A stretch of DNA of 64,000 nt from Polaribacter butkevichii (lineage in GTDB: Bacteria > Bacteroidota > Bacteroidia > Flavobacteriales > Flavobacteriaceae). Positions 5,541 through 25,454 of the stretch are shown one piece after another. The stretch spans positions 1,259,001 to 1,323,000 of the forward strand of contig NZ_CP150661.1 of assembly GCF_038024105.1 (NCBI RefSeq). The letters are read 5' to 3'. How positions within the stretch are numbered: position 1 is the stretch's first letter; every line of letters begins with the position of its first letter. The notes under the pieces were generated by a model. The model did no database searches. It was not told the origin of the DNA and was given only the letters and a program-made list of their open reading frames with translations. A program made the translations under genes and the position numbers.

Positions 5541-6857
5541 TTACTCTTCATTAGCCCAATTCAACCTATCTTGTTGGTTGTATTGCCAAGGAGCACCGTT
5601 ATTTTCGATGTTGGTCATCATCATATTTAACTCTTGTGGTGCTGCACTTTCTTCCATCACCAAATATCTTCTCATATCCATAATAATAGATAATGGATCT
5701 ATATTTACAGGACATTCTTCTACACAGGCATTACAACTTGTACATGCCCAAAGTTCTTCTGGAGAAATATAATCGTTTAGTAATTGTTTTCCATCATCAA
5801 CAAAAGTTCCTTTATTAGCATCGATATTTCTACCAACTTCCTCTAAACGATCACGCGTATCCATCATGATTTTTCTTGGTGACAATTCTTTTCCTGTTAA
5901 ATTTGCAGGACAAGACGATGTACATCTACCACACTCTGTACATGTATAGGCATTCATTAACTGAACCCAATTTAAATCTGTAACATCTGAGGCACCGAAT
6001 TTTTCTGGAATTGCTTCTTCTTCTCCTTCTGGTGGCGCTGCATAAGGATCTGCATCTGGATCCATCATTAGCTTTACCTCATTAGTAACCGATTCTAAAT
6101 TTGTAAATTGTCCTTTAGGTTTTAAATTTGCATAATACGTATTTGGAAACGCTAATAAAATATGTAAATGTTTAGAATAATATAAATAGTTTAAGAAAAC
6201 TAAGATTCCTAAAATATGAATCCACCAAGCACTTCTTTCAATCGTATGAATAGTTTCTAAAGAAAAACCATCAAACAAAGGAGTTATAAATTGACTGATA
6301 GGGTTACCAATTGCTGCTTGCTGAAAATGAAAATCTGTTGCATTCATTACCAAAAACAGGGTCATTAAAACCATTTCAAAATAAAGAATATTATTACCAT
6401 CCTTTTTAGGCCAACCCTTCATCTCTTTAGTCAAAAAACGTTTTATGTTAGAGATGTTTCTACGTAACCAAAAAACAACAACAGCTATAAAAACTAAGGC
6501 TGCTAATATTTCGAAAAAACCAATTAAAAATCCATAAAAACCATCACCTAAAAAACCTCTAAAAACTCTATGAGTGCCAAAAAGTCCATCAATAATGATT
6601 TCTAAAACTTCTATATTAATAATGATAAAACCAACATAAACAATAATATGAAGCACCCCAGAAAGTGGTCTTTTTACCATTTTAGATTGCCCTAACGCAA
6701 TCTTTATCATATTTTTTAAACGTTCTGGTTTATTATCTGTTCTGTTAACATCTTTACCTAATTTAATGTTTCTAGATAATTTGCGAATATTCATCACAAA
6801 AAAACCGACTCCTAGAACAAGAGCCAAGGCAAAAAGTATGTTTGGTAAATATTGCAT
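5541..6857 (-). CDS. Membrane-bound 4Fe-4S dicluster protein (HdrC/DsrM-like)
   Basis: 438 residues. About six transmembrane segments (roughly residues 5-22, 67-90, 105-130, 158-175, 210-228) are followed by a cytoplasmic ferredoxin-like region with two clusters: C306, C309, C312, C316 and C372, C375, C378, C382. Histidines in the helices (for example H70, H214) could ligate b-type haem as in NarI/DsrM proteins, but this is inference. With the CCG protein downstream it forms an HdrCB-like pair fused to a membrane anchor, likely a quinone-linked oxidoreductase. Electron donor unknown. Confidence 0.8.
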   Translation of the reverse strand: MQYLPNILFALALVLGVGFFVMNIRKLSRNIKLGKDVNRTDNKPERLKNMIKIALGQSKMVKRPLSGVLHIIVYVGFIIINIEVLEIIIDGLFGTHRVFRGFLGDGFYGFLIGFFEILAALVFIAVVVFWLRRNISNIKRFLTKEMKGWPKKDGNNILYFEMVLMTLFLVMNATDFHFQQAAIGNPISQFITPLFDGFSLETIHTIERSAWWIHILGILVFLNYLYYSKHLHILLAFPNTYYANLKPKGQFTNLESVTNEVKLMMDPDADPYAAPPEGEEEAIPEKFGASDVTDLNWVQLMNAYTCTECGRCTSSCPANLTGKELSPRKIMMDTRDRLEEVGRNIDANKGTFVDDGKQLLNDYISPEELWACTSCNACVEECPVNIDPLSIIMDMRRYLVMEESAAPQELNMMMTNIENNGAPWQYNQQDRLNWANEE

Positions 6858-22184: not shown

Positions 22185-23702
22185 CTACAAAACAGTTTTA
22201 ACCTTATCTACAAAACCAGCAATTGTATACGGTTTAGAAATTACACCAGAAAAACCTAAAGCCAAATACCTTTCTAAATCCTCATTAGAGGTATTGGCTG
22301 TTAAAGCCATAAAAGGAGTCTCTAAGTTCATTTTTACAGAGGGCAACTTCCTCATCAACTCCTCACCTGTCATATTAGGCATATTAATATCTAATAAAAC
22401 AACATCAAAGGTTTCCTTTTCTATTTTAGCTAGCGCTTCTAAACCATCATTTACAAGGGTTAAATTAGATTTTTCCTTTCCTAAAATATGCGCAACTATA
22501 GTTTGATTCATAATATCATCATCAGCTACTAAAATATTTTTACCTTTTAGAGATTTATCTTTCTGCTGTAAAGTTTCTTCTATTTCTTTTGATATTTTAG
22601 TGGTTTTAGAAAAAGGAATTTCAACAAAAAAAGAAGTACCAACATTCAATTCACTTTTAACAGAAATTTTTCCATTCATGGCAACTATTAAACGGTTAAC
22701 AATTGCCAAACCTAAACCAGCACCTCCATGAACTCTATTATCATCTAATTCATTCTGTTCGTATTCTTCAAATATTTTTAAGCATTGCGCTTCAGACATT
22801 CCTCTTCCAGAATCTGTAACTTCAAAAAGAAGGTTAACCACTTTTGCAGATTCAAATGCCACTTTTACACTTGTTATTACGCGCCCAATACTCGTAAATT
22901 TTATAGCATTACTTATTAAGTTTACTAGTATTTGTTGTATTCTAACAGCATCTCCTAACACAAATTTAGGAAGCTTGCTAGAAGTAATAAAAATCAATTC
23001 TACCGCTGTATTTGTATGTAGTTGTTCAAAATCATTTTTACAATTCTGAATTATTTTTTGAATACAAACTTCTTCTGAAGCTAACCTTAATTTACCAGCT
23101 TCAATACGAGATAAATCTAAAATATCTTCAACAATAACTTTTAAGTTATTACCCGCAGACGATAAACTCTTAATATATGCCGCTACTTTTTGATTTAAGT
23201 TTTCTGAAGAAATCATTGCTGCATAACCAAGAATTGAGTTTAAAGGATTTCTAATTTCATGACTCATCATTGCTAAAAATCGAGATTTCTCTTCATTAGC
23301 TTTATCAGCAATTTTTCGCAATGCATCTAACTCTATGTTTTTTTCTGCAAGTTCTCTTTTTATAAAGAAAATATCATTTCTATTCTGATTTAATTCACTT
23401 ACATATTTATATACATTTGTTCTATTATGTATTAAAATAGCTATTGAATCATCGGCCTTAAAAAGTTCTAAATCTATATTGTATTCTATTGTATCTGAGT
23501 TTAAAATCATCCCTTCTAAAAGAAAGGGTTCTTTTAAAGGCAAGGCTTCTAAAGTACCTTCTAAAAACGGACAAGCATCATAGATAGATTCTTGAATTAC
23601 AAATTCTTTTCTTGTAAATTTTCCTGCAATAATGTTTGTAATAACTCCTGAATAATCAGTAGTTAATTGTAAAAAAACATCTTCTATTTTTGCAGGTATC
23701 AA
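22185..23702 (-). CDS. Hybrid histidine kinase with C-terminal receiver
   Basis: 505 residues, no transmembrane segment, TTG start six bases after the GTPase stop. An N-terminal PAS-like sensor (about residues 5-100) and a coiled coil (105-140) lead into HisKA with H148 (MSHEIRNPLN), HATPase N-box N265, G-boxes DSGRGM and GGAGLGLA (326-333), then a receiver (about 388-505) with D438 and K490. It is therefore a soluble kinase. Sitting last in an operon with a Rab-like GTPase, it may read out or control the GTPase state. The sensor ligand is unknown. Confidence 0.92.
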   Translation of the reverse strand: MIPAKIEDVFLQLTTDYSGVITNIIAGKFTRKEFVIQESIYDACPFLEGTLEALPLKEPFLLEGMILNSDTIEYNIDLELFKADDSIAILIHNRTNVYKYVSELNQNRNDIFFIKRELAEKNIELDALRKIADKANEEKSRFLAMMSHEIRNPLNSILGYAAMISSENLNQKVAAYIKSLSSAGNNLKVIVEDILDLSRIEAGKLRLASEEVCIQKIIQNCKNDFEQLHTNTAVELIFITSSKLPKFVLGDAVRIQQILVNLISNAIKFTSIGRVITSVKVAFESAKVVNLLFEVTDSGRGMSEAQCLKIFEEYEQNELDDNRVHGGAGLGLAIVNRLIVAMNGKISVKSELNVGTSFFVEIPFSKTTKISKEIEETLQQKDKSLKGKNILVADDDIMNQTIVAHILGKEKSNLTLVNDGLEALAKIEKETFDVVLLDINMPNMTGEELMRKLPSVKMNLETPFMALTANTSNEDLERYLALGFSGVISKPYTIAGFVDKVKTVL

Positions 23703-23708
23703 TAAAAA

Positions 23709-24194
23709 TTATTTTAAAGTTAAACTGGTTAATTTCATAAAAGCATCTTCTACATTTTCATCTTCTTTTGCACTTGTAATTAAATCGATATCTACAGAAA
23801 CCTTCTGTATTACATTTTCTAATTCTTCATTAGAAAGTAAATCTTTTTTATTACCAACAATAGTTATGTTGTTTAAACCAGATAGGTCTTTAACCATCTT
23901 TAAATTCTCATCAATCGATAGGTAAGTTTCTTCTCTGCTTACATCAAACACAAACATGGCTGCATGAGAACCTAAAAAATAGGCTTTCGGTATTTTTTCA
24001 TTACCATTGGTACCAGCAACATCCCAAATCATTAATTTAATGGTTTCATTTTGATATTCTACTACTTTTTTACTTACTCTTACGCCAATAGTACTAATGT
24101 AATCCTCAGAAAACTCATTTAAAACAAACCTTCTAATTAATGAAGTTTTACCAACACCAAAATTACCAACTAGTAGTACTTTTTTTGCTTTCAT
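23709..24194 (-). CDS. Rab/Ras-like small GTPase
   Basis: 161 residues, a near-minimal Ras-superfamily domain. G1 is GNFGVGKTS (10-18), the G2 threonine is T35 (ISTIG), G3 is WDVAG (57-61), G4 is GNKKDL (N115, K116, D118) and G5 is TSAK (140-143). The residue after G3 glycine is T62, where Ras and Rab carry the catalytic glutamine. No C-terminal lipidation cysteine is present. It lies between the longin/roadblock-like gene and the hybrid kinase in a compact operon. It is closer to eukaryote-like Rab/Roc forms than to Era/Obg GTPases. Confidence 0.9.
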   Translation of the reverse strand: MKAKKVLLVGNFGVGKTSLIRRFVLNEFSEDYISTIGVRVSKKVVEYQNETIKLMIWDVAGTNGNEKIPKAYFLGSHAAMFVFDVSREETYLSIDENLKMVKDLSGLNNITIVGNKKDLLSNEELENVIQKVSVDIDLITSAKEDENVEDAFMKLTSLTLK

Positions 24195-24211
24195 AAATTA
24201 TGATTGATTTT

Positions 24212-25021
24212 TTACTCTTTAATTAATTCGTTAAATATTAATTGATTTAAGCGCTCCTCATCTGCTAAATAAGAACGATCTCTTAAAATAATCTCTGTAA
24301 AATTATTGATATTATCAGATAGTTCATCTGTATGTTCTTGTGTTAAAACACCAGAGGTAGCAATTGCAATATAAATGGTTTTAAAGTTTTTAATAGAAAG
24401 TTGAAATGTTTCAAATTTTATATTTTCTAAATCCTGACCTTCTTTAGAAAATGCATCTTCGGCAAAAGATTTAATTGCCGTTAACATACCAGAAATCATA
24501 TCTTTATCTGCAATATTACCTCTAGAATAGCTACCAGAAAGTAACCCAGAGTCTTTTTCAATTACAAAAACTTCTTCGATAACAAATTCAAAAACCTCTT
24601 CTAAAACAATACCAGCATCATTTCTTTTTCCTTTAAAGAATCGTTTAAGCATTTCTTTAATAGAGAATTTTTCTTTTACTGTTCTATTAATACTGTCAGA
24701 TAACTTTGTAATTTCTGCAACAATAAATTTCTTAACCATTTTACCCATAATTGGGTACAAGGCTTCTACAACTTCGTCTTGAGAGTCTCTAATTTGAACT
24801 TTTATTGTTTCTGTAATTGTATCACCAAAGTCTCTTGAAAAATTTTTACGTAAATCTAAAATTTTCTCATCTACAAGAGGAGCAACTCTTTTAGACAACT
24901 TTTCTCTTAGAATAATTTCTTCACTTAAAGAATCAAACTTTTCTCTATCTTCGGCTAATAAAAGGTCTCTGAGCAACTCAAAACGATTGTCTTTATTGTT
25001 ATCTGCAGGTGTATTTTTCAT
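24212..25021 (-). CDS. GTPase-associated protein, longin/roadblock-like C-terminal fold predicted
   Basis: 269 residues. The order is: an N-terminal LLRDLLLAED motif (16-25), a helical middle with 'EVVEALYPIMGKMVKKFI' (83-100), then a C-terminal alpha/beta region from about 145 ('VFVIEKDSGLL', 'KDMISGMLTAIKSFAEDAF'). That last pattern resembles longin/roadblock-type GTPase regulators. From memory, the same core is found in proteins called 'OmpA family' or 'cell envelope biogenesis protein OmpA' in other phyla, where a C-terminal OmpA domain is added; none is here. No signal peptide. The ATG abuts the stop of the coiled-coil gene. Likely a GTPase partner; function unproven. Confidence 0.6.
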   Translation of the reverse strand: MKNTPADNNKDNRFELLRDLLLAEDREKFDSLSEEIILREKLSKRVAPLVDEKILDLRKNFSRDFGDTITETIKVQIRDSQDEVVEALYPIMGKMVKKFIVAEITKLSDSINRTVKEKFSIKEMLKRFFKGKRNDAGIVLEEVFEFVIEEVFVIEKDSGLLSGSYSRGNIADKDMISGMLTAIKSFAEDAFSKEGQDLENIKFETFQLSIKNFKTIYIAIATSGVLTQEHTDELSDNINNFTEIILRDRSYLADEERLNQLIFNELIKE

Positions 25022-25375
25022 TTATTCTTGCAACATCAATGCAATTTTCTCTAAAGCTTTACCTAGTTTTTTTCTGTCTGCTTTTTCATCATCTAAATCT
25101 GCCAATCTCTTATCTAAATCGTCATTTAAGTCCTGAAACTTGTGTTCCATTAAACTTTCTAAATCGGCTAATTTATTTTCTAGGTTTGTAACAGACTCAG
25201 AAATATTTTTATCAGTTTGTTCTTTAAGTGTTTTAATTTTGTCATAAACATCAGCAAACTCGCTGCTGTATTGTTGCATGTTTTCACCAAAAATTAAATC
25301 TCTTACAGCTGCAATTCTATCATCAATTTTATGATTTTCAACTACAGGCTGTTTATTTTCTGAATTTTTTTCCAT
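25022..25375 (-). CDS. Small coiled-coil protein, first gene of the GTPase operon
   Basis: 117 residues, strongly charged, predicted coiled coil from about 45 to 112 with heptad leucines. Its N-terminal motif VRDLIFGEN (24-32) resembles LRDLLLAED in the next protein, suggesting a shared interaction element. No enzyme motif, signal peptide or membrane segment. I do not recognise a named family. Being first of four tightly coupled genes, it probably acts as a scaffold or adaptor; that is inference. Confidence 0.7.
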   Translation of the reverse strand: MEKNSENKQPVVENHKIDDRIAAVRDLIFGENMQQYSSEFADVYDKIKTLKEQTDKNISESVTNLENKLADLESLMEHKFQDLNDDLDKRLADLDDEKADRKKLGKALEKIALMLQE

Positions 25376-25446: not shown

Positions 25447-25454
25447 CAAATATA
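25447..25454 (-). promoter_or_regulatory. -7 promoter box of the GTPase operon
   Basis: On the minus strand this is TATATTTG, a match to TAnnTTTG, about 72 bases before the first ATG (25375). The expected upstream TTG is not evident. Confidence 0.45.

Follow-up and report, generated by a model that had tools for sequence, protein, structure and literature searches.

A Group 1 Rup-type gene set in Polaribacter butkevichii with a predicted longin-fold partner and an invariant glutamine in the output protein

What kind of switch is encoded by four adjoining genes of Polaribacter butkevichii that include a Rab-like small GTPase and a soluble histidine kinase, and how might its parts act on one another? 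The genes lie in a stretch of 64,000 nucleotides (contig NZ_CP150661.1, positions 1,259,001 to 1,323,000 of the forward strand, assembly GCF_038024105.1), here called the window. An earlier note, made from the sequence letters, had reported four minus-strand genes at positions 22185 to 25375 separated by 0, 17 and 6 bases, and the positions of the open reading frames (ORFs) bear this out:

25022..25375, minus strand: 117-residue coiled-coil protein (CC), first gene of the set, with a homologue in 47 of the 49 tabulated loci
24212..25021, minus strand: 269-residue protein, N-terminal coiled coil and C-terminal predicted longin-fold domain (ORF, AlphaFold2 (AF2), Foldseek, VIA)
23709..24194, minus strand: 161-residue Rup-type (Rab-like) small GTPase (Pfam Ras, 1e-33)
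22185..23702, minus strand: 505-residue hybrid histidine kinase with a TTG start, the signalling output (Pfam HisKA, HATPase_c, Response_reg)

Relation to the Group 1 Rup system

The earlier note knew of no described function for these genes. The set nevertheless matches the Group 1 Rup system catalogued in 2014 (Wuichet and Sogaard-Andersen, PMC4316618), which has the same four components, and no Rup member had been characterised experimentally according to its authors. As in that system, the GTPase lacks the G3 glutamine and the output carries an invariant N-terminal glutamine. Judged by sequence, all five features on which membership of Group 1 would rest are found here. The conserved domain of the Group 1 Rup partner is often, not always, accompanied by a membrane helix and OmpA (PMC4316618), whereas the longin-type protein of the window is short, soluble and without either. 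From architecture and neighbourhood, the C-terminal domain of this protein would be the conserved domain of that paper, and Gln106 of the kinase would be its invariant glutamine. No later work on the Rup system was seen among the papers listed from open-licence PMC text, as judged by title, opening of the abstract and frequency of terms, nor is there any paper in that text in which 'longin', 'Rup' and 'GTPase' occur together. What is new here is the predicted fold, given to a domain of unknown kind in PMC4316618, and the broader invariance of the glutamine, the set itself having been catalogued already.

The GTPase

The 161-residue protein is a single-domain member of the Ras superfamily, and the Ras fold claimed for it in the earlier note is upheld by the Pfam Ras match and by G1, G3, G4 and G5 motifs together with a G2-like TIG. 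Among proteins of solved structure, Rab1B proteins come closest to it (E 1.3e-27; PDB sequence search, best 60 of 841 matches). It is the sole strong Ras-family match in the 4.08-Mb genome, in which four further Ras-profile matches of 24-29 bits lie within frames of 304-964 residues. One position is of particular concern:

24009..24011, minus strand: codon of Thr62, which takes the position of the catalytic glutamine of Ras in G3 (WDVAGT)

The catalytic glutamine of G3 is absent from all 38 tabulated GTPases, which have Thr, Glu, Ser, Asp, Val, Gly, Asn or Pro there instead. A Rab-family GTPase was also seen on a Legionella adelaidensis plasmid (L110:4980-5927); no gene for OmpA, a kinase or a cyclase is annotated around it, and going by the gene table it lies outside the Rup system.

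A predicted longin fold in the 269-residue protein

Two parts of the 269-residue protein are distinguished by structure prediction:

24635..25000, minus strand: long helical or coiled-coil part, residues 8-129 (AF2, uneven confidence, blocks of ten at about 43-84)
24215..24583, minus strand: longin-fold domain, residues 147-269, b-b-a-b-b-b-a-a (AF2, Foldseek, VIA)

The C-terminal region, which the earlier note had taken for longin-like, is predicted to adopt a longin fold; AF2, Foldseek, VIA and a second model agree on this. The same order of elements appears in the models of the 269-residue protein and of a same-genus relative, and the predicted domain closely matches solved longin domains across its whole extent (Foldseek, VIA). 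Among the matches listed, the closest solved folds are longins, neither PAS nor GAF, and roadblock chains come lower in the Foldseek list (MglC 7ct3 at rank 38). By profile, a roadblock identity of the MglB type is not supported, Robl_LC7 (Pfam) being without a match in the 269-residue protein or anywhere in the genome.

Sequence searches point in the same direction faintly, with weak hints to the first longin domains of FUZ/MON1/HPS1 and INTU/CCZ1/HPS4. Fuz_longin_1 was reached below threshold in 1 of 18 sequences (E 0.042) and 2 of 10 domain pieces (E 0.011 and 0.19), and Intu_longin_1, again below threshold, in 2 of 77 long homologues (best E 0.022); the window protein itself matched no curated longin profile even at that level. 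Neither it nor CC matched a Pfam family above cut-off. A search of the PDB with the single 269-residue sequence gave no match, and one with the family profile gave 91, the best 60 of which all fall at profile positions 409-580, a C-terminal part present solely in long relatives, and are mostly OmpA.

The absence of membrane segments from all four proteins, as stated in the earlier note, holds for this set, in whose proteins no strongly hydrophobic stretch of 19 residues was found (maximum 1.61), and fails for the long relatives of the 269-residue protein. The longin proteins of the window, L032 and L033 have no membrane helix (maximum hydropathy 1.61, 1.12 and 1.01), as against seven long relatives with such a helix at residues ~298-355, past the longin domain (2.03-2.51). 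OmpA is present in all 77 long homologues scanned. By alignment, the domain of the 269-residue protein is common to these OmpA-bearing relatives; the window protein has neither their helix nor OmpA, and the envelope anchor has therefore been lost from the short form or was never part of it. In Polaribacter records, relatives up to 91% identical to it bear the name 'cell envelope biogenesis protein OmpA', which is misleading for the 269-residue protein because it contains no OmpA domain, and which was perhaps transferred from the long relatives. In the Mesorhizobium and Rhizobium plasmid loci (L107, L109), the longin protein reaches 1021 residues, with a tandem-repeated segment after the hydrophobic stretch.

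An invariant glutamine in exchangeable outputs

The earlier note had described the kinase as PAS-like, HisKA, HATPase and receiver parts. The last three are matched by Pfam; the N-terminal part is PAS-like by eye only, and no Pfam family recognises it:

23358..23702, minus strand: N-terminal region of the kinase, also present in the other output classes (24-row alignment)
23385..23387, minus strand: codon of Gln106, the proposed in-trans catalytic glutamine and sole invariant column of 24 output N-terminal regions
23094..23288, minus strand: HisKA domain, residues 139-203 (Pfam)
22608..22955, minus strand: HATPase domain, residues 250-365 (Pfam)
22200..22535, minus strand: receiver domain, residues 390-501 (Pfam)

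The output differs between the 38 loci with a GTPase, being a histidine kinase in 33, a sigma-54 activator with a PAS domain in three (L034, L035, L041) and a class III nucleotide cyclase in two (L107, L109). Class was assigned with Pfam for L034, L041, L037, L040, L032, L107, L108 and the window, and by resemblance to the window kinase or by motifs for the remaining outputs; in L032 and L046, where genes overlap, the output (a kinase) was read from the neighbourhood. Gene neighbourhoods thus show that lineages can swap the output enzyme and still retain the other three parts.

For the glutamine, 24 outputs chosen from the 38 were aligned with MAFFT, comprising the window, three same-genus loci and sequences of other lineages. 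The column of Gln106 is the same in all 24; it lies where the N-terminal region passes into the helix that follows. Across this region, identity to the window kinase is as low as 12-24% for 19 of the other 23 sequences. Thirteen of the 14 unaligned outputs, from Polaribacter-type loci, show the same LNQxRND motif, and the remaining one (L043) has LLQTARD. In PMC4316618 it was speculated that the glutamine is supplied to the GTPase in trans; the pattern seen in these sequences agrees with that idea and would extend it to two more output classes, the sigma-54 activators and class III cyclases, which are not named in the available text of that paper and may be in its supplement tables.

In L072, a separate 139-residue ORF (6221-6640) between the longin and GTPase genes resembles the output N-terminal region by eye. 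It is without the invariant glutamine and is perhaps a duplicated, solitary copy of that region. Locus L037 has, after its kinase gene, a gene for a response regulator that carries a sigma-54 domain.

Distribution and gene order

The family of the 269-residue protein is patchily distributed. It was found in 11 of 39 relatives, among them 10 of 24 same-genus genomes, some of which are incomplete, with the own genome included in both counts, and in 14 of 296 Bacteroidota genomes, one of which (G098) was judged false; profile searches of 395 genomes each retrieved it in 19 at the level of the order and 14 at that of the phylum. The G098 match (E 6e-4) was rejected, there being no CC or GTPase match around it and no counterpart among the phylum profile matches; it lies in an ORF whose start we take to be that of a glutamyl-tRNA reductase. 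Gliding as a main role is not supported, as 14 of the 24 same-genus genomes, some incomplete, have no match, and this patchy presence argues against a core gliding part.

Scanning contigs with the single 269-residue sequence yielded Polaribacter loci only (n=6), and wider neighbourhoods were taken from the genome search and from plasmid records. Named records with the set are these six Polaribacter contigs and plasmids of two alphaproteobacteria (Mesorhizobium sp. WSM1497 and Rhizobium sp. 007) and one cyanobacterium (Nostoc sp. UHCC 0926). Of 840 long homologues, the 120 listed bear names that point, among others, to Rhodothermales, Acidobacteria, Pyrinomonadaceae, Thermodesulfobacteriota and Entotheonellia.

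A GTPase gene is present in 38 of the 49 tabulated loci, and 34 of these have CC, longin, GTPase and output genes in that order on a single strand (with the extra ORF of L072 between longin and GTPase). The other four (L037, L039, L040, L046) have the longin gene opposite in strand to the GTPase-output pair, no CC being detected in L046. The survey across Bacteroidota proposed in the earlier note thus finds the order kept far beyond close relatives and recurring in distant members of the phylum, and this recurrence exceeds chance. In eleven longin loci (L036, L038, L044, L078-L085) no adjacent GTPase was found, L079 and L085 lying near contig ends; CC was found in ten of the eleven.

Twelve genomes of the order sample (395 genomes) have a strong Rup GTPase match (at least 173 bits), and all are among the 19 with a longin gene, for which the chance is 2e-18 with kinship disregarded. 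The GTPase was never found there without the longin gene (12/12); the longin gene occurs without the GTPase in seven genomes. One match of 60.7 bits, inside a 932-residue frame of G623, was not counted as a Rup GTPase.

Some loci show further peculiarities. In family f7 (L078-L085), the CC partner has 329-433 residues where detected (7/8), and six of the seven sequences examined have MLDT instead of MLTA in longin helix 1. Genome G371 holds both a full four-gene set (L071) and an orphan longin pair (L082), and G290 has two long longin genes (L037, L046), each with a divergently transcribed GTPase-kinase pair.

A proposed mechanism and its alternatives

The earlier note had suggested a cytoplasmic switch of GTPase and kinase, and a soluble switch of this kind is the most sensible reading. 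On balance we lean towards a Group 1 Rup signalling module in soluble form, working in four steps. CC and the longin protein would form a complex through their helical parts. The longin domain would then bind the Rab-like GTPase and, by analogy with the eukaryotic longin platforms, promote GDP/GTP exchange upon a signal sensed by the complex. Once loaded with GTP, the GTPase would dock on the output protein, in this set the hybrid kinase, at the N-terminal region of that protein and switch its activity. Because the GTPase lacks the G3 glutamine, the invariant glutamine of the output may complete its active site in trans, and the effector would in this way end the signal.

Several points weigh against this proposal. 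The first AF2 model is of moderate quality (pLDDT 69, pTM 0.44, longin helix 1 below 60), no curated longin profile lies above cut-off in the 269-residue protein or in the relatives scanned, and a shared fold proves no function. Binding and exchange by the longin domain are what we infer by analogy. A model of longin domain and GTPase fused by a short artificial linker reached a pTM of 0.72 with 4 of 49 rows paired including the query, which is suggestive of contact at most; for two unrelated domains of similar size, a lower pTM is generally expected. Fold searches with the fused model are uninformative on the longin part because GTPases alone were among the matches listed. Seven genomes of the order sample, in which every longin gene is of the kind without an adjacent GTPase, have no strong Rup GTPase match, and the longin protein must therefore act without the GTPase there. 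The GTPase of L032 has a glutamine just after the G3 place (GEQ). In L040, L042, L043 and L046, the output glutamine and the arginine after it are one residue farther apart than in the window kinase, so that the register of the glutamine in these four depends on the aligner.

The last two points touch on the catalytic step. The GTPase could instead be a slow or non-hydrolysing switch and the output glutamine a structural or signalling residue, an explanation that we consider doubtful but not to be dismissed lightly. Since the residue at the G3 place varies among the GTPases, no single catalytic substitute is kept, which would suit such a switch, as would the position of the glutamine at the junction of domain and helix. 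Against it stands a glutamine that is the sole invariant residue in so divergent a region. For the longin-fold domain, a role as ligand sensor of the PAS/profilin type, linked to the GTPase by a shared pathway only, might be considered, given that longins belong to a wide PAS/GAF group (PMC4917890) and that 11 of 49 longin loci have no GTPase alongside. The GTPase, however, keeps constant company with the longin gene in the order sample, and the closest solved folds among the matches listed are longins rather than PAS or GAF, so that we find this role quite improbable.

The direction of signalling could also be reversed, as in actinobacterial conservons, with the kinase as the top sensor, the GTPase as output and the longin protein as a GTPase-activating protein (GAP) or anchor in the manner of MglB/CvnB. 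PMC4316618 itself draws the conservon analogy and argues there for the Group 2 MglA GTPase as output, and the window kinase, being hybrid, has its own receiver. Against this arrangement, the fourth gene of other loci encodes a sigma-54 activator or class III cyclase, which are outputs and not sensors, and Robl_LC7 has no match in the genome; we deem it unlikely.

Comparison with other GTPase systems

Adjacency of a small GTPase to a regulator of roadblock/longin-like fold is shared with MglA/MglB of Myxococcus and Thermus and with conservons, which add a histidine kinase. MglB and CvnB are roadblock domains, whereas by profile this genome has no CvnB homologue, and in contrast to MglA and conservon sets, the best solved relatives of the GTPase (best 60 of 841 matches) are Rab proteins. 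The pairing of a longin fold with a Rab-like GTPase recalls the eukaryotic platforms TRAPP, Mon1-Ccz1, DENN and Inturned-Fuzzy, from which the present set differs in being a bacterial gene set with signalling outputs, a long N-terminal coiled coil and a putative exchange role. Asgard archaea likewise have prokaryotic longin and Rab-like proteins (PMC10933270). In strain MK-D1, however, small GTPase genes generally lie outside operons with roadblock, longin or TRAPPC3 genes (PMC10933270), unlike the shared operon found here. A bacterial longin-like domain as such is not new, since 'Longin/Roadblock' is already entered for Bacteria in a table of PMC4917890.

The coiled-coil protein and the upstream box

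Three smaller features complete the locus:

25280..25318, minus strand: N-terminal motif of CC, residues 20-32, resembling the N-terminal motif of the 269-residue protein
24944..24985, minus strand: N-terminal motif of the 269-residue protein, residues 13-26 (family alignment)
25447..25454, minus strand: TATATTTG box, a possible -7 promoter element (conserved upstream; counted against chance in the window)

Phe29-Gly30 of CC is invariant in the 12 sequences aligned, and L108, outside the alignment, has Leu-Gly. A profile-profile comparison of the CC motif with the 269-residue family gave a weak match (31 columns, probability 19.5, E 0.0012); judging from sequence, the two motifs could be a common docking site.

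The TATATTTG box, under which the earlier note had placed all four genes, is conserved: GTATATTTGT is kept in 11 of 12 aligned upstream regions, the exception being L071 from another family, and the stretch between TATATTTG and the start codon is variable. The count of TATATTTG in the window (8 found, 8.4 expected) does not exceed chance. No promoter of the form TTTG-N17-21-TAnnTTTG was found upstream of the set, nor TTTG at the tested distance from TATATTTG. That the conserved box is the single promoter of the four-gene set is plausible.

Implications

Arguments have been made for ancestral Rup GTPases as the origin of the Ras-superfamily GTPases of eukaryotes (PMC4316618) and for prokaryotic roadblock domains as the origin of longins (PMC3521125). 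It can tentatively be speculated, though we would not call it likely, that the pairing of Rab and longin predates eukaryotes and Asgard archaea, and that bacterial Rup operons encode a true longin-type exchange platform for a family of Rab-like GTPases, with swappable outputs (kinases, sigma-54 activators or cyclases), each giving its glutamine in trans. A pairing of Rup GTPase and longin fold would make the origin of the Rab-longin partnership testable with small soluble proteins, and swappable outputs that share one invariant glutamine would be an unusual switch, in which the effector is its own GAP and yet can be replaced by another enzyme.

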